Source of the DNA: Nostoc sp. GT001
GTDB taxonomy: Bacteria > Cyanobacteriota > Cyanobacteriia > Cyanobacteriales > Nostocaceae
Reading direction: 5' to 3'
Assembly: GCF_030382115.1 (NCBI RefSeq)
Contig: NZ_JAUDRJ010000003.1
Coordinates: 3,147,523 to 3,170,731 of the forward strand
DNA length: 23,209 nucleotides
The first letter of the stretch is position 1, and each line of letters begins with the position of its first letter. A program made the translations under genes and the position numbers. The notes under the pieces are model-generated. The model was not told where the DNA came from and searched no databases. It saw nothing but the letters and a program-made list of their open reading frames with translations. Shown here piece after piece: positions 5,433 through 15,302 of this stretch.

Positions 5433-6143
5433 ATGATTATACCATTCTCTAAACCAGAAATATCCTTAGAAATAGCAATTTACCTATGGAATTCAGTTGA
5501 GCAATTCCCTGTAGATTTTGAGTTAGCGTGGCAATGGTTGGGATACACAAGAAAGGATTCAGCCAAGAAAAAGCTCACTAGAAACTTCGTTGAAAATGAA
5601 GATTATATGCTCCGCCATTTGGCGGAGTCGGCTCCAGATAAGGGATTAACCCATAGAGATGATATCTGGCTCTCTTGTAATTGCTTAAAAGAAATGGCAA
5701 TGATGGCGGGTACTGAAAAAGGTAAAGAAGTACGCCAATATTTTCTTGAGTGTGAAATCTTGGCTAAACAGGCAGTCAAGGTAATTCCCCAACTCCAGCA
5801 GCAGATTCAGCAGATGCAAGAGAATTTTGATCGCCTCCAATCCCAAGTACAAAAAATACTCCCACCATCATCTGATTTCATCCCGCCAGGATGGGATGCA
5901 AGCACCTGGGCAACACTACCATCACAAGATAAACGTCACTTTCGCTATCTATACCAAAATTTCAATTTTCATCCAGAGTCTGAGGCGATCGATCATAAAC
6001 TGATTTCCGCAGAGGCGAAGTTGCAACAAAGACAGGAGGTTGAACAAATCATCGGTGAGGTAACGTCTGTTGAAATCTGGAGAATAGAGGATGCAAAGCA
6101 AGAGTTATTAGCGCGATTCTGGGCAGAAGGAGGAGAATCATGA
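5433..6143 (+). CDS. AntA/MSV199-type phage antirepressor-like protein
   Basis: The 236-residue protein has an N-terminal domain (about residues 20-115) with FELAWQWLGYTRKDSAKKKL, NFVENEDYML, CLKEMAMMAGTEKGKEVRQY and FLECE. This pattern is typical of AntA/MSV199 (KilA-N-like) domains found in phage antirepressors. A glutamine-rich coiled coil (IPQLQQQIQQMQENFDRLQS) follows at about 118-143, then a C-terminal region of unknown fold. Antirepressors of this kind bind DNA or neutralise phage repressors and favour the lytic switch; the partner here would be the XRE repressor at 2021-2350. A short palindrome (CTCCGCC/GGCGGAG, 5610-5627) lies within the gene. The stop overlaps the next ATG (ATGA). 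Confidence 0.75.
   Translation: MIIPFSKPEISLEIAIYLWNSVEQFPVDFELAWQWLGYTRKDSAKKKLTRNFVENEDYMLRHLAESAPDKGLTHRDDIWLSCNCLKEMAMMAGTEKGKEVRQYFLECEILAKQAVKVIPQLQQQIQQMQENFDRLQSQVQKILPPSSDFIPPGWDASTWATLPSQDKRHFRYLYQNFNFHPESEAIDHKLISAEAKLQQRQEVEQIIGEVTSVEIWRIEDAKQELLARFWAEGGES
5610..5627. repeat. short GC-rich palindrome inside antirepressor gene
   Basis: CTCCGCC and GGCGGAG form a 7-bp stem around ATTT. It shares the GGCGG/CCGCC core of the 27-bp palindromes at 3855 and 17923 but with the halves in opposite order. It could be a degenerate relative or chance. Confidence 0.3.
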
Positions 6144-7243
6144 ATAATTTTACCTCTGCAATGCTGGGGCAAATTAGCGCCCCAGTCAATATCCTCAAAG
6201 AATTTTTGGAGATTTTCAATCGTCGCCACAAATGCAAAGCAGCGATACTCTCATGGCTTGATGGCAAGCATTTCTATGGTCAAGAGTGGGTCAGGATAAC
6301 TAACGAAAATCTGGGCGAAATCTTAGGGTATTGTCGGGAAACGATCAGCAAACATCTCAGAGAATTGGTGACAGACAATCTGGTGAGTGAGTTGCCAGCA
6401 CAGCGCTTTCCCAAGGATACAGCCAATATGTACAGGCTAAATCCCAACTGGCTGCCACCGATAGAATTTGATAAATCTGAGTGGGCTGAATTATCAAAAG
6501 TGCTTGGCTTCTGGAAACATTTGGATATGCTGCCAAAAATACTTTTTTTCAGTCGATGCGAAAAAATTGACATAGATAGGCCAATTAATCAGCCTATCAA
6601 TGCGAATAATCCGCCAACATTAGAAACTAACTTAAAGCTTTTTAAAAACAACAACACTGCTGTTGGTGAAAAAAAAGTTGTGGTGAAGGAAGAAGAGGAA
6701 TCAGATTGGGAATCCATCTCTACGAGACGCTGCGCGAACGCTGCTGCAACCGATGATTGGGAGCAAACCCAGATTACTCACTCCGTTGAAAACTTAGAAC
6801 AAGTAACTCCTGCTGACGAGATAGATCCTCATGATGATTTATCTTCCGCGCCAGAAATTAAGCAAACTTCAACTCAAAATAAGCCCACAAAGCAGGAAAT
6901 TAAGGATACTTGTGTCGAACTAAAAAGGCTGCGAATTAATCCAGACCCGTGCTTGGGGGTAATTAAGAAATATTGGGGTAATGTGGCAGGTGCGATCGCT
7001 CGTGTCAAAGAGGCGCTATCAGAGGGTTGGTGCGACAATCCCACGGGATTATTCATCAACAGCTGCAAGAGTGGAGTCAAGGCAAAAACTACTGTCACGA
7101 CTGATGTCAGTGATTGGTTTAACTGGGCACGCAAGCAAGGGATAGTGCTTGCGATGACGGGAGGACAGTGGGCTTACTTGCCAGATGGAAGCCAAGCCTC
7201 GCTTGAGGAAATGATGCGAAATTATCCAATGGGAGAGCTATGA
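6140..7243 (+). CDS. winged-helix protein, putative phage replication initiator
   Basis: The 367-residue protein starts with a winged-helix region (about residues 20-110): FNRRHKCKAAILSWL, then VRITNENLGEILGYCRETIS and KHLRELVTDNLVS, the layout of a MarR- or replication-initiator-type helix-turn-helix. A long polar linker (160-245) contains a dispersed repeat encoding STRRCANA. The C-terminal domain (about 250-367) has RLRINPDPCLGVIKKYWGNV and NPTGLFINSCKSG. The two-domain design, linker and position resemble phage replication-initiation or DnaD-like proteins, but I cannot name a family. The ribosome-binding site GGAGGAG lies upstream of ATG at 6140, which overlaps the preceding stop. Its own stop overlaps the ASCH gene start. 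Confidence 0.6.
   Translation: MNNFTSAMLGQISAPVNILKEFLEIFNRRHKCKAAILSWLDGKHFYGQEWVRITNENLGEILGYCRETISKHLRELVTDNLVSELPAQRFPKDTANMYRLNPNWLPPIEFDKSEWAELSKVLGFWKHLDMLPKILFFSRCEKIDIDRPINQPINANNPPTLETNLKLFKNNNTAVGEKKVVVKEEEESDWESISTRRCANAAATDDWEQTQITHSVENLEQVTPADEIDPHDDLSSAPEIKQTSTQNKPTKQEIKDTCVELKRLRINPDPCLGVIKKYWGNVAGAIARVKEALSEGWCDNPTGLFINSCKSGVKAKTTVTTDVSDWFNWARKQGIVLAMTGGQWAYLPDGSQASLEEMMRNYPMGEL
6718..6742. repeat. dispersed repeat inserted in frame within replication-like gene
   Basis: The sequence CTCTACGAGACGCTGCGCGA and its continuation match, in reverse complement, the repeat inside the integrase (1118-1140) at 21 of 23 bases. It lies in the polar linker of the protein, where extra residues are likely tolerated. 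Confidence 0.7.
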
Positions 7244-7827
7244 AAGCCATCACAGTTAAAGCCACCCTAGCATGGGCCATATTCAACGCCAATCTCACTG
7301 TTATTAGGCGTTATGAGTCCATAGGTTTCCTGAAACAAGTAGCGATTCATGCAGGAAAACAATGCACGCGTTCGGATTGTGAGAATTTTTTCAGGATGAC
7401 GGGAATTAAGCCTCCTCACCACAATCGTTTACCGCTTGGTCAGGTTATCGGGCTTGTTGATGTTGTGGATTGTCAACAAGTGGATAGCAGTCGTTGGGAC
7501 TGGAAGATCGCCAACCCCAAACCTATCAACCGATTTCACCACAAAGGACAACTTGGAATTTACGAAATTCCAGACGACTGGATTGATTATGACTGCTCTA
7601 AAAACTGCATCCTTGAGGAGTGTGGCTACAAATCACAAGGTAATCCCAGAGGGCAATGGCGGGTTACAGTGTGGCCGCATCCATACGAAGAAGAACATTA
7701 TTGTTTTGCAGTGGGTATGGGCGGTGGGGTAATGAGTGGCGGCATTCTAGGGCTTAGCACACTACACGGGTGCTATTTGGAGGCAGAAGAGGCGCTTCAG
7801 GCAGGTATAAAGGAGCTTTACTCATGA
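7240..7827 (+). CDS. ASCH-like protein with C-terminal extension
   Basis: The 195-residue protein shares the layout of the ASCH protein that follows it: an MKAITVKATLAWAIF start, a central GQVIGLVDVVDCQ strand-turn and WDWKIANPKPINRFHHKGQL with a final GIYEI. ASCH domains have a PUA-like fold and are thought to bind RNA or modified nucleotides; some act on N4-acetylcytidine. Residues about 115-195 form an extra segment with several Cys (DCSKNCILEECGY) and a Gly-rich patch (GMGGGVMSGGILG); it resembles nothing I recognise. GGGAG precedes the ATG, which overlaps the previous stop; the stop overlaps the next start. The tandem arrangement suggests duplication and divergence. Confidence 0.65.
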   Translation: MKAITVKATLAWAIFNANLTVIRRYESIGFLKQVAIHAGKQCTRSDCENFFRMTGIKPPHHNRLPLGQVIGLVDVVDCQQVDSSRWDWKIANPKPINRFHHKGQLGIYEIPDDWIDYDCSKNCILEECGYKSQGNPRGQWRVTVWPHPYEEEHYCFAVGMGGGVMSGGILGLSTLHGCYLEAEEALQAGIKELYS

Positions 7828-8291
7828 AAGCTATTAGTTTGTGGCAGCCTTGGGCGTCGTTTATTCCTTTGGGCATGAAGCGGTATGAGACGCGATCTTG
7901 GGAAACTAATTACCGAGGTGATTTACTGATTTGTTCGGCGAAAAAACAGTCTAGAGAGCAAGAGCGGATTTACGACAAAATTTTATACAAATATCAGGAT
8001 CGATATCCCGATTTACTCATAGACGATGAGTGGTGTAGGGAATGGGATGATTTGCCTAGAGGTTATGCGATCGCCGTTGTCACCCTTAGCGACTGCTTCC
8101 ATTTGACCGAAGAATTTATCGCCCAACAATCAGAAGTTGAGATTGATTGTGGAGATTGGCGAGTTGGACGATGGGCATGGAAGTTGGAGGATATTGAGAA
8201 GATTGTTGAGCCATTTCCTGTTTGTGGCAAGCAAGGATTTTTTGAGGTTGAGTTTGATCCTTCTTGTCTTGATTTGGAGGCAGTTGCATAA
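7824..8291 (+). CDS. ASCH domain protein
   Basis: The 155-residue protein begins MKAISLWQPWASFI, the usual start of phage and bacterial ASCH proteins. It continues with ETRSWETNYRGDLLICSAKK, RGYAIAVVTLSDC and WAWKLEDIEKIVEPFPVCGK followed by QGFFEV, which covers the full ASCH fold. These PUA-like proteins probably bind RNA or modified bases; the exact reaction is not known. ATG at 7824 is preferred over an upstream start because it gives the family N-terminus, has AAGGAG upstream and overlaps the preceding stop (ATGA). The stop codon shares a base with the next start (TAATG). Confidence 0.88.
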   Translation: MKAISLWQPWASFIPLGMKRYETRSWETNYRGDLLICSAKKQSREQERIYDKILYKYQDRYPDLLIDDEWCREWDDLPRGYAIAVVTLSDCFHLTEEFIAQQSEVEIDCGDWRVGRWAWKLEDIEKIVEPFPVCGKQGFFEVEFDPSCLDLEAVA

Positions 8292-8590
8292 TGTTTGGAT
8301 TTGATGGCGAAATTGAAGGGTTTCAGAAAATACTTCGGCGAATTGCAACCAATCCAGGCGAGGGCGGAATCACACACAAAGAGGTTAGGGCATACGGCAG
8401 ATGCCTGCTGCCACTGGTTTCAGTGATGAATTTAGGCAAATTTGAGTCAGAAATCAAACTTATGCTGGTGGCGATTTCAGCATCTGGATTGCCCCATTAC
8501 GATCGCTCGTTCCTAGCCTCTAAGATACTGAAATTGTTAGAGGAGATCCCAAACTCTAAGTCTGAATCAACAAATGCAGAATATTTCTGA
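8291..8590 (+). CDS. small hypothetical phage protein
   Basis: The 99-residue protein (MFGFDGEIEGFQKILRRIAT) appears mainly helical and has no motif I recognise. A GGAGG sequence about ten bases upstream and the TAATG junction with the ASCH gene support the start and coupled translation. The C-terminal tail (NSKSESTNAEYF) is polar. Gene size and position match the many unknown early genes of temperate phages. Confidence 0.65.
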   Translation: MFGFDGEIEGFQKILRRIATNPGEGGITHKEVRAYGRCLLPLVSVMNLGKFESEIKLMLVAISASGLPHYDRSFLASKILKLLEEIPNSKSESTNAEYF

Positions 8591-8606
8591 TGCGGGAGTA
8601 TTAACA

Positions 8607-8771
8607 ATGCCAATTGAATCTTGCAGAGGTAGGGAAATTGAGACAAGTTGGGAACCGGGAGAGGGATGGTACTACAGGCTTGATTCTGGTGAGTGGTACG
8701 GCCCTTTTGATGCCGAGGAAGAAGCGATGGAAGCAGCAGAAGACAGGATTGACTCGGAGGATTGGGAATGA
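8607..8771 (+). CDS. small acidic tryptophan-rich protein
   Basis: The 54-residue protein contains SWEPGEGWYYRLDSGEWYGP followed by FDAEEEAMEAAEDRI and ends SEDWE. The W-x-x-x-SGEWYGPF pattern followed by an acidic helix recurs in small phage proteins of unknown role. ATG at 8607 is chosen over 8574 because GGGAG lies nine bases upstream and because it avoids overlapping the previous gene. Its strong negative charge could allow DNA mimicry, but this is only a possibility. The stop overlaps the next start by ATGA. Confidence 0.6.
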   Translation: MPIESCRGREIETSWEPGEGWYYRLDSGEWYGPFDAEEEAMEAAEDRIDSEDWE

Positions 8772-8983: not shown

Positions 8984-9051
8984 TTGCCATGCCAGCTTCT
9001 TCCGATTCCGCGCATAATCATCCGGCGATCGCACAGGAGTGGGACAAATGA
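8980..9051 (+). CDS. 23-residue mini-protein linking two genes
   Basis: A 24-codon frame (MIAMPASSDSAHNHPAIAQE then WDK and TGA) starts on the ATGA of the upstream stop and ends on the ATGA of the next start. It therefore bridges the only gap in this stretch and would keep ribosomes coupled through it. The peptide has no recognised motif. It may serve only as a translational coupler. Whether the peptide is stable is unknown. Confidence 0.4.
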   Translation: MIAMPASSDSAHNHPAIAQEWDK

Positions 9052-10154
9052 CTGAATTAGCTGCACCCAACCTTGGTAAATTTTTTACCAGTTGCACCAA
9101 GCGTCCGGCTACCGCAGAAGATATTACCTTGCTCCAGGTAGGTGATTGGATTAGTGAAAAAGAATGTCCCTGGTCTTTTCAGTTCAAGCGCTGGGATGGG
9201 AATATGTGCATTGGTGCATGGGAGGAAAAAGAATTCCCTATCCCACGCCACCTACTGATGGTTTGCCAGATCATAGAGGGACAAGTTGTTGAAAAATTTT
9301 TCAGGAGCGAGGTTGTCGCCTCTTATAAAATTTTCAACAAGCTCATAAACCAACTGGGTTTCACTTCGATTTTTGAGCTATCAGACTTGACTTTTGAACT
9401 AGTTGAAGATTTTGGTGTATGTGCTTACTATGTGAGGAAAAAAGACACTCAAGTAACTATCAGAAAATTGGCTGTTCTACCTCAGCATCAAAAACAAGGA
9501 TGGGGACGGCTTTTAATTTATCGAGTAATTTGTAAAGCTATCGAGCAGCAAAAAACCAGTATTTTCCTCAAATGCCCTGCCGATTTATCGGCTAACGATT
9601 TTTACAAAAATCTTGGTTTTGAACTGGAAGCAACAGAGCAAGATAGAACGCGACCTCTTAATCATTGGCGATACCATATTAAATTACCTTTACTCTTTTA
9701 CTGCGGTGGTGGTGGAAAGAGTAAGTATGATGCGATCGCTACTGAGCATGGCTGGAATTTAGGAATAAATAGCAGCGGCAAGAACAAATCTCACCAGCAC
9801 ATGATGATGATCGACAATGATTGGGAGAATTACGACCACGAAAAGCACCTTGCGATGGTGAAACAGAACAAGCCACTAATTGCCACGGCAAGAGACATAG
9901 AACACCCCGATCAACTACCAGAAATTTTAGACCAGGCAACAGAATTAGCTAAATACGCTGGTCGAGTGTTACTGATTCCTAAATGTGATGTAACGCTGCC
10001 TGATAGTTATTGGTTAGGTTACAGTGTCGAGTCAGGGTATGGAAAAACGGATCTTAAGCCAGAGTGGTTTGGTAAAAGACCTGTACATCTACTGGGCGGC
10101 AGTCCCAAAAAAACAAGCACTTCTGTATCCTCAGATGAACGTAATCAGTCTTGA
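9048..10154 (+). CDS. GNAT acetyltransferase fused to DUF6610-like domain
   Basis: The 368-residue protein has three parts. Residues 1-110 are unassigned. Residues about 120-200 form a GNAT domain with the acetyl-CoA loop VLPQHQKQGWGRLLI and the C-terminal DFYKNLGFELE. Residues about 217-355 match my recollection of DUF6610: YCGGGGKSKYDAI, MIDNDWENYDHEKHL, RDIEHPDQLPEILDQATELA, LLIPKCDV, YWLGYSVESGYG and RPVHLLGGSP. The last blocks recall the TIM-barrel end of tRNA-guanine/DpdA-type transglycosylases; that link is inference. A modified base or an acetylated intermediate could be the product. ATG at 9048 has AGGAG upstream and overlaps the preceding stop. The methyltransferase gene starts within its last codons, suggesting joint action. 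Confidence 0.75.
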   Translation: MTELAAPNLGKFFTSCTKRPATAEDITLLQVGDWISEKECPWSFQFKRWDGNMCIGAWEEKEFPIPRHLLMVCQIIEGQVVEKFFRSEVVASYKIFNKLINQLGFTSIFELSDLTFELVEDFGVCAYYVRKKDTQVTIRKLAVLPQHQKQGWGRLLIYRVICKAIEQQKTSIFLKCPADLSANDFYKNLGFELEATEQDRTRPLNHWRYHIKLPLLFYCGGGGKSKYDAIATEHGWNLGINSSGKNKSHQHMMMIDNDWENYDHEKHLAMVKQNKPLIATARDIEHPDQLPEILDQATELAKYAGRVLLIPKCDVTLPDSYWLGYSVESGYGKTDLKPEWFGKRPVHLLGGSPKKTSTSVSSDERNQS

Positions 10155-11994
10155 TGCAAACTACGCCATGAACTTGGCTAGCAACTATTGCAAGGCGGTT
10201 TGGACTGACGGAAAGAAAAATATTGAACACCAAGAACAGGGGTGCTACCAGGCACTATCTCTTTCTTTAAAAGAGCAGTTTCAATTTTGGGCAACTCAAT
10301 GCCCTGTCAATGCAACCAAGTCCGAACAATTAATGGATGAAGTGAATACACAGCAATTCAAGATAGGCGATCGCGTCAAGTGGAGGGATGTCCCCGAATC
10401 TATCTATCAGATTGCAAAACCAGAGCGCGGGGGTCACGTAACAATTGAACTAATTGAATCTAGCACCAAGCCCAAACCTCCGCGCAGAAAACGAGTTACT
10501 TTGTGGGAAATTCAATTACTAGCGAAAAGACCCTCCAGTGGCACGGATTTAGGCTTTAAAGTAGGCGATCGCATTATCTCCAAGCATCGCTTAAGCTTGG
10601 GGCAAACCTTTGAAATCGCAGAATATCCAAATGTATACGCCGATGGCTTAGTCAGTTATGAGTCACTGGTAACTACTACGAATTTAGTGCTTGGTACAGA
10701 TCAAGTGGAGAAACTTAATCCCAAACCAGTTCTGCCACCAGATGCGCCGATCGCAGTAATACTATTCGCTGGCGGCGGTGGCGTGGAAGCCGGCATGGTG
10801 GAAGCTGGGATTCGACCACTTACCGCTGTCGAGTTTGACCCGAAGAAGCCCAAACTCAGCAGTGCGATCGCTGATTGTCACGAACGCAATTTTGGCGAAT
10901 ACGGTTGTCAGGTAGAAAGGAAAACTGTTCAGGAAATCTCAAAATTAGGATTTCCTGTTTTCCCGCGAAATACCGAGTTTCTCCATGCTTCCCCAATGTG
11001 TTCTAATTTTAGCAATGCCAAAGCGGGTGAGGCTATTGAAACAACAGAAGATATCGAGATGGCGTCAGCTGTTGCGGATGCGATTCGCCATCTCCAACCC
11101 AAGTTTTTCACGCTTGAAAACGTCAAGTGCTACCGCGATTCCCAAAGCTTCAAAATTATTGTCCAGGCGCTAGAAGTTGAGGGCTATATCTGGCAAAGGC
11201 AAATTATGACTTTGCTCGATTGTCAAGCCAGGGAGCGGTTTATTGTCTGGGCGGCTAAAGGCTGGTTGCCGCCGTTACCGGAGCCAATTCAACCAGTTGG
11301 CTGGTATGAAGTAGTGGCTGATCTCATCCCCAAAATGGCGGATTCAGAATTAGTCCTAGGACAGCAGAAATCGCTTGAAGAATTCCTCTCAAAGAACGAA
11401 CCCACACCATTGCTGATTCAAAGAACAGGGGCAAGAGAAAAAGAGTACAGAATCAAACCCGCTCACCTCCCATGCGATACCATACTGCGATCACACTTCA
11501 CCGACGGTAAAGGCTGCAATCGCAACAAGTTTGCTGATATCTGGCTACCGGATGGCACTGTAAAGTCACTGTCAATAGAAGCAGCAGCGCGGTTGCAAGG
11601 GTTTCCAGATTGGTACGAATTCCCCCCAGATACCGCCACTGCTGGCTCGATTATTGGCTATTCAGTGCCGCCAAAATTTGCAGCGCAATTGTTTAAATCC
11701 CTCCAACAACCCCCGCCAATTGAAGTACAAATTCTGCAATCCCTAGAGCGCATTATCCAACACAACTGGCACATCCAAAACCTAGAAACCGAATCCAGAC
11801 AAACCAACATCATTAAAGAAGCCATCAAATCTGACAAAAACGCGATCACTTCCGTTCAAGAACACATTAATCAACTGCTGGAAGAACTGATTATCTACCG
11901 CCAGTTAAGGGAGTTAGTTGGTGCGGATGAAGCTAAAATCAGAACGCTTAAGATAATTGCAACTCAAAACCACAATCAGTCAACTTCTGATTAA
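10135..11994 (+). CDS. C5-cytosine DNA methyltransferase
   Basis: The 619-residue protein carries the ordered motifs of C5-cytosine methyltransferases: motif I FAGGGGVEAGM (about 211), motif IV ASPMCSNFSNA with Cys289 as likely nucleophile, motif VI LENVK (328), motif VIII QARERF (364), a target-recognition stretch, motif IX RLQGFP (486) and motif X GYSVPP (508). Motif IV is SPMC rather than the common PPCQ. Upstream are two similar barrel-like units beginning KIGDRVKW and KVGDRIIS. It would methylate cytosine using SAM, probably to protect phage DNA. No restriction endonuclease gene is adjacent. ATG at 10135 is preferred; a start at 10024 would overlap the previous gene by 131 bases. The 3' end overlaps the convergent gene by 47 bases. 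Confidence 0.88.
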   Translation: MNVISLDANYAMNLASNYCKAVWTDGKKNIEHQEQGCYQALSLSLKEQFQFWATQCPVNATKSEQLMDEVNTQQFKIGDRVKWRDVPESIYQIAKPERGGHVTIELIESSTKPKPPRRKRVTLWEIQLLAKRPSSGTDLGFKVGDRIISKHRLSLGQTFEIAEYPNVYADGLVSYESLVTTTNLVLGTDQVEKLNPKPVLPPDAPIAVILFAGGGGVEAGMVEAGIRPLTAVEFDPKKPKLSSAIADCHERNFGEYGCQVERKTVQEISKLGFPVFPRNTEFLHASPMCSNFSNAKAGEAIETTEDIEMASAVADAIRHLQPKFFTLENVKCYRDSQSFKIIVQALEVEGYIWQRQIMTLLDCQARERFIVWAAKGWLPPLPEPIQPVGWYEVVADLIPKMADSELVLGQQKSLEEFLSKNEPTPLLIQRTGAREKEYRIKPAHLPCDTILRSHFTDGKGCNRNKFADIWLPDGTVKSLSIEAAARLQGFPDWYEFPPDTATAGSIIGYSVPPKFAAQLFKSLQQPPPIEVQILQSLERIIQHNWHIQNLETESRQTNIIKEAIKSDKNAITSVQEHINQLLEELIIYRQLRELVGADEAKIRTLKIIATQNHNQSTSD

Positions 11995-12462: not shown

Positions 12463-13827
12463 TTATATAGGTAGAAACGATTGTAAAACTAACTGCCCCG
12501 AAGTCCCGGAACCACCATTGCCATTAGAAGGAGCGCCCGATTGCCCACCGTAGGAGCCACCAAGTGATGAGCCGATTCCTGGCGGAGTGCCTGCACCTAT
12601 TCCTCCAGCCCCACCTACCAAATTTATAGTTGCGCCTGTGGTGTTGGTGCTTGGACTTTGCAAGACGATGTAGCCACCGCCACCGCCAGCTCCTCCACCA
12701 GCACTGTTGGCATAATTAAATCGGCTCCCTGCGGCTCCATTGCCACCTTTAGCGCTAAGTACAGCAGCAGCTGTCGCTGTAATCCCTAAAAGAGATTTAA
12801 GCCATATAAGCCCGCCGCTGCCGCCACCACCTCCAGCCAAGGCAATACTTGCACCATCATCACTATCGACTACACCGGAAATGGCATCGCCACCATTGCA
12901 ATATATGCCTCCAGTAATGGTAATTGTGCCAGCAGCATCGCAAGTGAAGAAGCCGCCGCCAAAGCCGCCCCTAGATGTCGCAAAGGCCGGGGTAGCAGAA
13001 ATTGATAAAGTGGCAATCCCAGCCGCCCCACCAGATCCTGGATTTGGGCTACCAGAAAAGCTATAGGGGTAGATAGGGGCAGCAGAAGAATTATGCCCAC
13101 CGCCTCCGCCATACCCTAATCCAGAATCAGCTACCACAAGCCCAGGAGAGGGAAAATTTCCGCTAAAGCCTCTGCCCCCCGGAATTGCTGGGGTGATGGT
13201 AATAGTGCCATCAATCGCGATATTTCCAGAAGCGATGATTTGTAAAAATCCAGAGACTGTAAGGGTTACGCCAGCAGAAACAGTAAAATTTCTGACAAAT
13301 CTTACTCCAGATAGAGACTGATTCGAGCTAATCGTCAAATCACCCTCGTAGCCACCCGAACCAAAACTGGCAATTGTATTTGCCCTTGGCTGGATTTGAA
13401 ATCGAGGGCGCAAATCCACAATAGAACTGATACTGCCAGCGCTAGTTATCACCTTAGCAAGTGGCGTACACCGCACAAGCAATAATACGCCAACGACTAC
13501 TGTGCCAGCCTCGTTTACATAAATATAGTTTGTAGTATTATTGGCGACTGATAAATTAGCGGGTGAGATGGTAGCGATCGCGCCGTCTGCTAGTATTACA
13601 CTGCCACCAAGGTGCGAACAAGTTAATCCAGTCGCTGCTTGTACTTTGAGGGTATCTCTAAAAGTCGTCCACTCTGGTTTGATTTGTCCTGCGGTATCGC
13701 TCAAATCATCGTTGGTGATTTTTGCAAAATGCCCATCCAAATCTTGTCCGTCAAAAGTTGGATCATTAATTGCATTGAGAAAATCTGGAGTTACTGTAGT
13801 CCCATTTACAAAAGTTGTTTTTACCAT
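12463..13827 (-). CDS. glycine-rich tail fibre/adhesin
   Basis: The 454-residue protein opens with VKTTFVNGTTVTPDFLNAIN, a common start of phage fibre and appendage proteins, followed by a beta-rich region. Its C-terminal half is full of glycine clusters (GLGYGGGGGHNSS, GGFGGGFFT, LAGGGGGSGGLIW, GGGAGGGGGYIVL, GGSYGGQSG). This resembles polyglycine-II sandwich adhesins such as phage S16 gp38, which bind host surface receptors; the resemblance is in composition and layout. ATG at 13827 follows the previous stop by two bases; a TTG at 13836 would overlap it. It lies between another fibre gene and the gpG-position gene, which supports a host-recognition role. The repeats may be prone to length change. 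Confidence 0.78.
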   Translation of the reverse strand: MVKTTFVNGTTVTPDFLNAINDPTFDGQDLDGHFAKITNDDLSDTAGQIKPEWTTFRDTLKVQAATGLTCSHLGGSVILADGAIATISPANLSVANNTTNYIYVNEAGTVVVGVLLLVRCTPLAKVITSAGSISSIVDLRPRFQIQPRANTIASFGSGGYEGDLTISSNQSLSGVRFVRNFTVSAGVTLTVSGFLQIIASGNIAIDGTITITPAIPGGRGFSGNFPSPGLVVADSGLGYGGGGGHNSSAAPIYPYSFSGSPNPGSGGAAGIATLSISATPAFATSRGGFGGGFFTCDAAGTITITGGIYCNGGDAISGVVDSDDGASIALAGGGGGSGGLIWLKSLLGITATAAAVLSAKGGNGAAGSRFNYANSAGGGAGGGGGYIVLQSPSTNTTGATINLVGGAGGIGAGTPPGIGSSLGGSYGGQSGAPSNGNGGSGTSGQLVLQSFLPI

Positions 13828-13829
13828 AA

Positions 13830-15302
13830 TTACCAATAAAGCTTGCTACCAGAAAATCGGGTCATGTAAATATCAGTTAAAGCATTGCGATTAGTTGTCG
13901 TGCCATCGCTAACGACGTATGGCTTGAATTGTGCTGTAGAGGCTGCTACAAGATAAATTTGTGCAGTACCCGAAGCGTACATTAAAGTCTCGGCTCCGCT
14001 GATTTGCCAGAGCCGATATTCTGTGGCTCCCACATAAATAGAGCCGATAAAAAAGCTTACGATCGTACCAGTAGTTCTTTCTATGCTTGCGCTAGCATGA
14101 AATTCATACCAGCCAGATGTAGGGGCAGTAAATGTTGCTGTTGAGGGAACAAAAGCATTATCGGTATCTAGCAATTCTGAATCAAAATTCAGAATATTTA
14201 AGCCTGCTGTAAGAGCTTGATCGGTTGTTTTGACTGCCGCAAATGCAGTGCTTGCTAGTTTATTTTTTACGTATAAAGTTGTTGCTAACTTATTACTTTC
14301 ATCGCTTATCGCTTGGGTTGGCGCTGCTGGATTATTAGTAAAAATTGGGCTATCTTTAGTGGCAAATTCATTTCCCACCCATTGAGTGGTAGGTATAGCG
14401 AGTGAGCGATCGCCCAAAAGTGGATTGCTATTGCGGCTAGGCGAACCAGTCAGGTTAGGGCTATCTAGGGGTGCATAAGTTGCAAGCTGGGCAATTGTTG
14501 CCAATTGCACAATGATGTCGCGCACGGCATTTTTGCTAGGAGCATTTGTGTCTCCGTTCCACCCAGTCGCATCGTAAGCAGTGTCATTCCCCCCGGTTCC
14601 TCCAGGGTCGCCAATTTGTGCAAGGATTTGCCAGTAAGCTGTGTTCACCAGCGAAGGAGTTTGGTTTGCGGCAGGATCGGGATTAATATACACCCACGAG
14701 GAGCCGCCATAAGTTACGGAATCATCCCTCTGGTAATAAGTAGCAGATGAATAAGCTCCCTTGAATCGCGGCCCACCACGCAGCGCTTCTACAAAATCAG
14801 CATCAGTAGTCAGCAGTTCGGCAAGCTGTCTGACTGCTCTTGGTAGCGAATCTGTGGAAATGCGTGTTGGGATAAGAGACGCAAATTCAACTGATGAGGT
14901 ATTGGGTACAAGCGCATGGAAATCCATCACCACACTTGATTCTGCGGTGGTGACTTGCCCTAGTTGCTGTGAGGTATCGGCATCGTAAAACGTACCAGTG
15001 TAGTAAAGACTGCTCTCAATGACTACTGGCCCGTCATACTGCGTACCATCTGCCAACCAGTAAGTGATTCTCGTAGTGTGCTTACTGACTACAAAGTGGT
15101 ATGTAACGTTACTTGTGGCGCTTTCGACAACGTTCACGCCACTCAACGTGCCAGAACTAAAAGTGAAGGTGTGAGGCGTGAGAGTATAAATTGAATCAGG
15201 TGTAGTGCCGACATCAACCAATGGCGCATCAAGGGTGACGGTCAAATCGCCGTCAAACGTCACCCCACCCGAATCTACGAATTTTCCTGTTATTTGCGTC
15301 AC
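13830..15302 (-). CDS. tail fibre/appendage protein with C1q/TNF-like end
   Basis: The protein starts VTQITGKFVDSGGVTFDGDL, a beta-rich domain typical of cyanophage fibre or baseplate-plug proteins. A middle part contains GAYSSATYYQRDDSVTYGGS (a carbohydrate-binding-like unit) and repeated fibre segments with QWVGNEFATKDSPIFTNNPA. The last 130 residues, with FTAPTSGWYEFHASASIE, look like a C1q/TNF jelly-roll, a receptor-binding tip in many fibres. I choose GTG at 15302 (490 residues) because an upstream GTG at 15362 would add 20 residues coded by a tandem heptamer repeat. It would correspond to P2 gene H. The next fibre gene follows after two bases. Confidence 0.75.
   Translation of the reverse strand: MTQITGKFVDSGGVTFDGDLTVTLDAPLVDVGTTPDSIYTLTPHTFTFSSGTLSGVNVVESATSNVTYHFVVSKHTTRITYWLADGTQYDGPVVIESSLYYTGTFYDADTSQQLGQVTTAESSVVMDFHALVPNTSSVEFASLIPTRISTDSLPRAVRQLAELLTTDADFVEALRGGPRFKGAYSSATYYQRDDSVTYGGSSWVYINPDPAANQTPSLVNTAYWQILAQIGDPGGTGGNDTAYDATGWNGDTNAPSKNAVRDIIVQLATIAQLATYAPLDSPNLTGSPSRNSNPLLGDRSLAIPTTQWVGNEFATKDSPIFTNNPAAPTQAISDESNKLATTLYVKNKLASTAFAAVKTTDQALTAGLNILNFDSELLDTDNAFVPSTATFTAPTSGWYEFHASASIERTTGTIVSFFIGSIYVGATEYRLWQISGAETLMYASGTAQIYLVAASTAQFKPYVVSDGTTTNRNALTDIYMTRFSGSKLYW

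Follow-up and report, generated by a model that had tools for sequence, protein, structure and literature searches.

Background

The described systems closest to the locus treated here are DpdA1, the DNA guanine transglycosylase of phages 9g and CAjan, and two bacterial systems: the Dpd systems, where a ParB-like protein, DpdB, accompanies DpdA, and the BREX-related capture (BRC) systems, for which a GNAT, occasionally fused to a tRNA-guanine transglycosylase (TGT), is reported and acyl and 7-deazaguanine marks on DNA are proposed (both in the parts of PMC12839542 drawn on here). A further case is HVTV-1, in whose DNA about 30% of G is present as dPreQ1; no DpdA was found and a host enzyme or another way was proposed (Hutinet 2019, in the part drawn on here). 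Here we examine positions 9048-11994 of a 23,209-nucleotide stretch of the Nostoc sp. GT001 genome ("the window", meaning the whole stretch of DNA that was analysed), a prophage region encoding a GNAT acetyltransferase domain, a DUF6610 domain and a C5 cytosine DNA methyltransferase. With a probability of about 0.72, we consider that these positions hold one split gene for a three-module enzyme whose DUF6610 part is a compact DpdA-type enzyme that exchanges guanine in DNA, acting by the mechanism proposed below.

DUF6610 resembles DpdA1 of 9g and CAjan in its setting with FolE, QueD and other preQ genes, in having invariant Asp residues in an early and a late conserved block, and in the His ahead of the late Asp. 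It differs in showing no similarity at the usual thresholds, in its length (about 220 residues versus 278-346) and in being accompanied by ParB, GNAT or DNA methylase modules. BRC systems, as far as the parts drawn on go, are cellular defences with PglZ and HerA, whereas the window is a prophage with DUF6610 and the C5 methyltransferase in the same gene (PMC12839542). That paper was the only one found on a preQ1-acetyltransferase link or on DpdA fusions; literature searches for DUF6610, PF20314 or DpdA4 found nothing, and the matches to DpdA3 concern lactic acid in yeast. What is new here is the triple fusion, together with the likely role of DUF6610.

Predicted fold and conserved residues of DUF6610

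An initial annotation of this DNA had supposed that the DUF6610-like part is linked to transglycosylases, and structure prediction supports this. The DUF6610 domain of a close relative is predicted to form a compact (beta/alpha)8 barrel of the TGT type (pLDDT 93), and the 50 PDB matches listed are all TGTs, by Foldseek as well as by VIA-align, at 8-13% identity. Three Asp and one His are invariant in all 42 aligned members, and the stretch RPVHLLGGSP is highly conserved in the family. Two of the invariant residues, Asp44 and Asp157 (42/42), stand in the order expected of a general base and a nucleophile, a residue mapping that comes from a weak hhalign match only; this match, the sole one (E 0.2), places His135 and Asp157 of DUF6610 on His196 and Asp215 of the 9g DpdA.

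Since the predicted fold is that of tRNA-guanine transglycosylases, and since GNATs that act on RNA exist, one may also consider that DUF6610 acts on tRNA like a classical TGT, with the GNAT or the methylase modifying the same tRNA. We regard this as very unlikely. The domain has 219 residues, versus about 350-380 in bacterial TGTs, and the alignment of the 42 members has no Cys column that is invariant or nearly so. A zinc-binding Cys cluster is a feature of tRNA-type TGTs, and given the short domain and the lack of conserved Cys, the zinc part seems to be absent. Moreover, DUF6610 is fused to two classes of DNA methyltransferase, C5 (in the window and two relatives, L011 and L068) and N6/N4 (in L034), and the dPreQ1 of HVTV-1 is in DNA. 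A tRNA target was therefore rejected as the main explanation, and a DNA target is favoured because of these fusions and because DUF6610 lies in viral preQ clusters. Of the earlier proposal that a modified base is placed in phage DNA or in tRNA, it is the DNA half that is better supported.

A protein target appears more improbable still. Cap10 of type IV CBASS belongs to the TGT family and has been remodelled for conjugating a nucleobase to a protein (PMC11996544, in the part drawn on here), and by analogy DUF6610 might attach or bind a 7-deazaguanine on a protein, with the GNAT modifying protein amines; the presence of QueC near DUF6610 at many loci would suit such a role. However, the three Asp and the His are kept in every member, as catalysis would require, and the same methylase fusions and HVTV-1 data indicate DNA.

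Linkage to preQ genes

Scans yielded 57 DUF6610 loci from viral sequences and five from genomes; an initial scan of viral sequences, for which the window protein was the sole query, found no relative, and the plasmid collection gave no match. DUF6610 was found in two of 386 genomes of the Cyanobacteria, the phylum of the window's host, and in one of 148 genomes of relatives, the window's own genome being counted. It also occurs in mycobacteriophages and in HCTV-5 (gene 68), and Haloferax volcanii, one of the control genomes, has a match above the Pfam cut-off. The census comprised 71 open reading frames (ORFs) at 69 loci, which collapse into 48 clusters at 90% identity; its profiles were grown from their own hits, window pieces included; it takes the ORF2 fragment of the window (see below) as a member and excludes L001-L003 and L006, and viral records may be fragments.

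In 13 of the 48 clusters, at least two of QueF, QueC, QueD, QueE and FolE lie on the same strand within 8.5 kb, and in two more a single one does. Only same-strand genes were counted, so that L050, whose four preQ genes are on the opposite strand, falls outside the 13. A fused ParB-like domain is carried by 15 clusters, and 12 are linked to a GNAT, four by fusion and eight within 200 nucleotides. At the level of the family, DUF6610 is thus linked to preQ0/preQ1 synthesis, with 17 loci having at least two preQ genes. A DpdA1 profile search covered 14 of these (among 18 DUF6610 records; L007, from the same genome as L067, L023 and L041 were left out) and found DpdA1 only in mycobacteriophage Funsized. 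In the other 13, DUF6610 is the sole candidate transglycosylase seen, because there is no DpdA1 there and no Pfam TGT in any, in a search that did not extend to DpdA2, DpdA3 or the bacterial DpdA.

HVTV-1 is one of these 13. Its gene 69, annotated as hypothetical, is a DUF6610 gene lying directly after GTP cyclohydrolase, and if DUF6610 is a transglycosylase, this gene would explain how a virus in which no DpdA was visible in 2019 comes to have dPreQ1-rich DNA, and a domain of unknown function would gain a testable role. Reportedly, Cui and colleagues in 2023 named DpdA4 as a subfamily confined to archaeal viruses; gene 69 of HVTV-1 and gene 68 of HCTV-5, both DUF6610, are the obvious candidates, and the two families may be the same. 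If they are, the activity of DUF6610 would already be partly known, and DUF6610 would add to DpdA4 the bacterial viruses (mycobacteriophages, the window and L068) and the new fusions.

Since the search at the 13 loci covered DpdA1 and Pfam TGT, another transglycosylase may be present there, which weighs against a transglycosylase role for DUF6610, as do several other results. The Pfam TGT model PF01702 matches neither ORF of the window nor any of the 18 DUF6610 records, though it also misses the named DpdA of Funsized. Profile-profile comparison of DUF6610 with TGT and DpdA1 did not detect a relation; the method is too weak here, since its positive control, DpdA1 against TGT, failed too. When HCTV-5 gp68 and the DUF6610 profile were each used to search PDB sequences, nothing matched at E-values up to 10. 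No GNAT, fused ParB or same-strand preQ gene is found near DUF6610 in 16 of the 48 clusters; only one of ten GNAT-linked records carries QueF, and of eight GNAT candidates scanned beside DUF6610, three gave no match to a GNAT model of Pfam. Finally, the window copy is broken in frame, its ORF1 as deposited ending short of the last invariant Asp, and no preQ genes are found in the window or within 20 kb on each side. Even so, because of the predicted TGT fold, the 13 preQ loci in which neither DpdA1 nor a Pfam TGT was seen and the dPreQ1 of HVTV-1, DUF6610 is, judging from the model and the gene context of its relatives, very probably a DNA guanine transglycosylase of the DpdA type.

Fusions and phylogeny

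The gene pair that the initial annotation had proposed to look for in related elements does recur, and in two cases all three modules form one frame. L011, a viral contig, has GNAT, DUF6610 and methylase in a single ORF of 829 amino acids with nearly full profile coverage (DUF6610 1-197 of 198, C5 methylase 6-322 of 324); a single-sequence structure model of this whole protein was uninformative (pLDDT 33.5). L068, from Nostoc sp. CHAB 5844, has them in an ORF of 586 amino acids, whose methylase covers only positions 31-168 of 324; further downstream, later methylase-like motifs can be read by eye in another frame, in an ORF with no Pfam match, and the methyltransferase end of the fusion seems to continue there (L068 4916-7169 for the whole arrangement). 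The window GNAT is 79% identical to that of L068 and 62% to that of L011. The GNAT-DUF6610 parts of the window and L068 are about 80% identical (78-82%), whereas their methylase parts share just 31% over 134 columns; the window and L011 methylases share 55% over 364 columns. At the sequence level, the window and L068 thus appear as the same front joined to different methylase backs.

The phylogenetic tree unites the three C5 fusions in a single clade with support (100/98); this clade belongs to a larger supported group (98/90), which in turn joins the ParB-preQ clade (97/92). A separate group (99/96) contains most of the GNAT-adjacent members, with L055 elsewhere, and the GNAT label requires at least four changes. 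The window is represented there by the first part of the domain only, labels were set by hand, and long branches call for caution with L010, L039 and L055.

Several other arrangements were observed. In L034 there are two DUF6610 genes (7681-8669 and 13391-15190), one behind a GNAT and one fused to the N6/N4 methylase, and QueF as well. In L030, a helicase plus N6/N4 methylase protein of 808 amino acids overlaps the start of the DUF6610 ORF. A ParB-like domain is fused ahead of DUF6610 in preQ-cluster phages (L005 1-1299, L017, L022, L031, L033 and L052). In L069 (7995-8687, Thermosporothrix hazakensis), DUF6610 extends over two successive ORFs about 500 nucleotides after a C5 methylase, and the viral L044 is alike. 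In the Hafunaviridae haloviruses HF2 and Serpecor1 (L008 and L009, both 5938-6852), DUF6610 lies about 800 nucleotides before a DNA polymerase B gene, and these stretches contain no annotated preQ genes.

One gene with a change of frame

The initial annotation had joined a GNAT to a DUF6610-like domain and put a DNA cytosine methyltransferase next to it, and Pfam searches agree on both points (Table 1). It had also taken the 131-nucleotide overlap of ORF1 and ORF2 for an overlap of two genes, which we reject, since the DUF6610 profile runs across both: ORF1 matches profile positions 2-148 (9e-64) and ORF2 positions 144-217 (1.5e-14), in a profile of 21 relatives from which the window was excluded (E-values refer to a five-sequence search). 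The third frame of the overlap scores -2.2 bits. As DUF6610 begins in ORF1 and ends in the frame of ORF2, this is one gene that a change of frame has split. Over 76 residues the part in ORF2 shares 70% identity with L068, and over 62 residues it shares 77% with L011. The stop of ORF1 (10152-10154) overlaps codon 10153-10155, which in the ORF2 frame encodes the invariant Asp (hand-counted). All three modules supposed earlier are present, but the last invariant Asp lies outside ORF1, and in the window copy the transglycosylase would be off unless slippage joins the frames.

Table 1. Features of the split gene and its two ORFs (window coordinates)
Feature	Position	Strand	Remarks
ORF1	9039/9048-10154	+	GNAT domain and first part of DUF6610
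ORF2	10024-11994	+	Last third of DUF6610 and C5 DNA methylase
N-terminal extension, about 85 amino acids	9048-9302	+	Missing from the N-terminus of the L011 and L068 fusions; no Pfam match
GNAT acetyltransferase domain	9303-9698	+	Acetyltransf_7 2.2e-9; three further Pfam GNAT models above cut-off
DUF6610, first two thirds (predicted TGT fold)	9699-10106	+	PF20314 1e-30, profile 1-136 of 198
First invariant Asp codon	9813-9815	+	Within first two thirds of DUF6610; position hand-counted
Invariant His codon	10086-10088	+	Within first two thirds of DUF6610
A run, site of frame change	10107-10113	+	L011 and L068 continue in one frame at the equivalent place
DUF6610, last third, in ORF2 frame	10114-10305	+	Profile positions 144-217, 1.5e-14; invariant Asp 10153-10155, putative nucleophile
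Linker between DUF6610 and methyltransferase	10306-10761	+	No Pfam match above cut-off; sequence differs from L011 and L068
C5 cytosine DNA methyltransferase domain	10762-11706	+	PF00145 3e-28, profile 6-323 of 324
C-terminal extension of methyltransferase ORF	11707-11994	+	Outside the PF00145 match

For the window copy alone, one may consider that it is a decaying remnant, with a dead GNAT-DUF6610 half and a methyltransferase that still works by itself from a start within ORF2. We find this plausible, if slightly below even odds. The premature end of ORF1 fits it, as do the methyltransferase end of L068, which is also seemingly out of frame, and the DUF6610 of L069 and L044, each in two ORFs. 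However, the ratio of nonsynonymous to synonymous substitutions (dN/dS) against L068 is 0.104 before the break and 0.109 after it (0.074 for the GNAT), with synonymous distances of 1.4-1.6 that approach saturation; in the comparison with L011, saturation is reached beyond the break. Equal purifying selection on either side implies that the break is recent, or an error, or bypassed; any decay would thus be recent, and the function of the family is in any case unaffected by this copy.

The third of these options, a bypass, could be a programmed frame change, in which slippage on the A run yields some full-length fusion and otherwise a GNAT with a truncated barrel. Besides the equal selection, the rarity of such overlaps would favour it: same-strand overlaps of at least 60 nucleotides between ORFs of at least 150 amino acids amount to two pairs in 423,209 bases (21 stretches of the host genome, window included), one of them being ORF1/ORF2. 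By this crude measure, the assembly is not generally error-prone. Nevertheless, we think programmed slippage unlikely, as neither fused relative breaks here, the A run is short for transcriptional slippage, 49 A/T runs of at least seven sit within uninterrupted mechanical ORFs of at least 200 amino acids in 360 kb, and the same pattern of selection would follow from a mutation of recent date or from a sequencing error confined to this place.

The acetyltransferase and methyltransferase modules

The acetyl-CoA motif of GNATs is Q/R-x-x-G-x-G/A. The window GNAT has both the profile match and this motif, which is shortened or altered in several of the adjacent short GNATs. Because these look degenerate, the GNAT may, to go by sequence, be only a binding module in some phages. 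Among 19 GNAT hits in 955,187 bases (with a profile grown from the same hits), 13 are fused to DUF6610 or within 200 nucleotides of it, and two lie about 370-630 nucleotides upstream; the remaining four, of which two come from near-identical contigs, belong to preQ clusters and precede QueF by about 60 to 1,100 nucleotides. Since GNATs are found fused to DUF6610, adjacent to it and upstream of QueF, our guess is that the substrate might be the aminomethyl group of preQ1. The BRC systems offer a published precedent for this guess, and the single QueF among ten GNAT-linked records speaks against it.

C5 methyltransferases are recognised by the catalytic Cys and the motifs ENV, QxRxR and LQGFP. 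Membership of the window protein in this family is borne out by its nearly complete PF00145 match. In an alignment with DNMT1 the catalytic Cys is present, and both the Pro preceding it and the Asn of motif X are replaced: motif IV reads SPMC in the window and SSVC in L011 versus the usual Pro-Cys, and motif X reads GYSVPP in the window versus GN(S/A)VPP. With these unusual motifs, the enzyme could possibly use another donor or have another activity. The motif X Asn corresponds to Asn304 of HhaI. In CmoX of phage S-B43, a cytosine C5-carboxymethyltransferase, Arg replaces this HhaI residue (PMC12783734, in the part drawn on here), so that CmoX and the window protein share the C5-methyltransferase fold and a replaced motif X Asn. 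They differ in the residue, which is Tyr in the window, and no CmoA-like Pfam match was found among the 19 window ORFs scanned; the window methylase matched 16 PDB sequences, none of them CmoX.

Proposed mechanism

We infer a base exchange in DNA, fed by host preQ and protecting phage DNA. DUF6610 would cut guanine out of DNA and put in a 7-deazaguanine, preQ0 or preQ1, supplied by the queuosine pathway of the host; both should be at hand, as the host has TGT, QueF and QueC. The methyltransferase would methylate the cytosines of that DNA and may take part in site choice, the GNAT would put an acyl group on the free amine of preQ1, and the combined modifications would shield phage DNA from nucleases. 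Viruses may thus assemble base swapping, acylation and methylation in one protein, and intact natural proteins are available, among them the L011 fusion, the GNAT-DUF6610 protein of L012 and the product of HVTV-1 gene 69.

A bolder version, rather doubtful in our view, is a single-polypeptide hypermodifier in which the GNAT N-acylates preQ1, DUF6610 inserts it and a swappable methyltransferase gives the site and a second mark. It would predict DNA with N-acetyl-dPreQ1 beside methylated cytosine, and a swap of methyltransferases, as between the window and L068, would retarget the enzyme. We know of no source of N-acetyl-dPreQ1; if the acylation is real, this would be a new DNA base, and the intact relative suggests a new kind of DNA armour.

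Prophage setting

Pfam and phrog domains of the neighbouring genes in the window identify a prophage of the tailed-phage type in a host genome of 7.9 Mb. One flank encodes baseplate J and V, P2-type tail I, tail fibres and an M23 peptidase, and the other replication-O-like, antirepressor and ParB-like proteins. The window methylase matches proteins of Planktothrix and Aphanizomenon phages, the Nostoc relative L068 coming from the genome scan. GCGATCGC sites are present in the window sequence, and all three observations suggest a cyanobacterial host. Acetylcytidine amidohydrolases belong among the ASCH proteins, and at 7240-8291 of the window there is a tandem ORF pair, both matching phrog_3193 over a near-identical profile range, the second of which has an ASCH domain.

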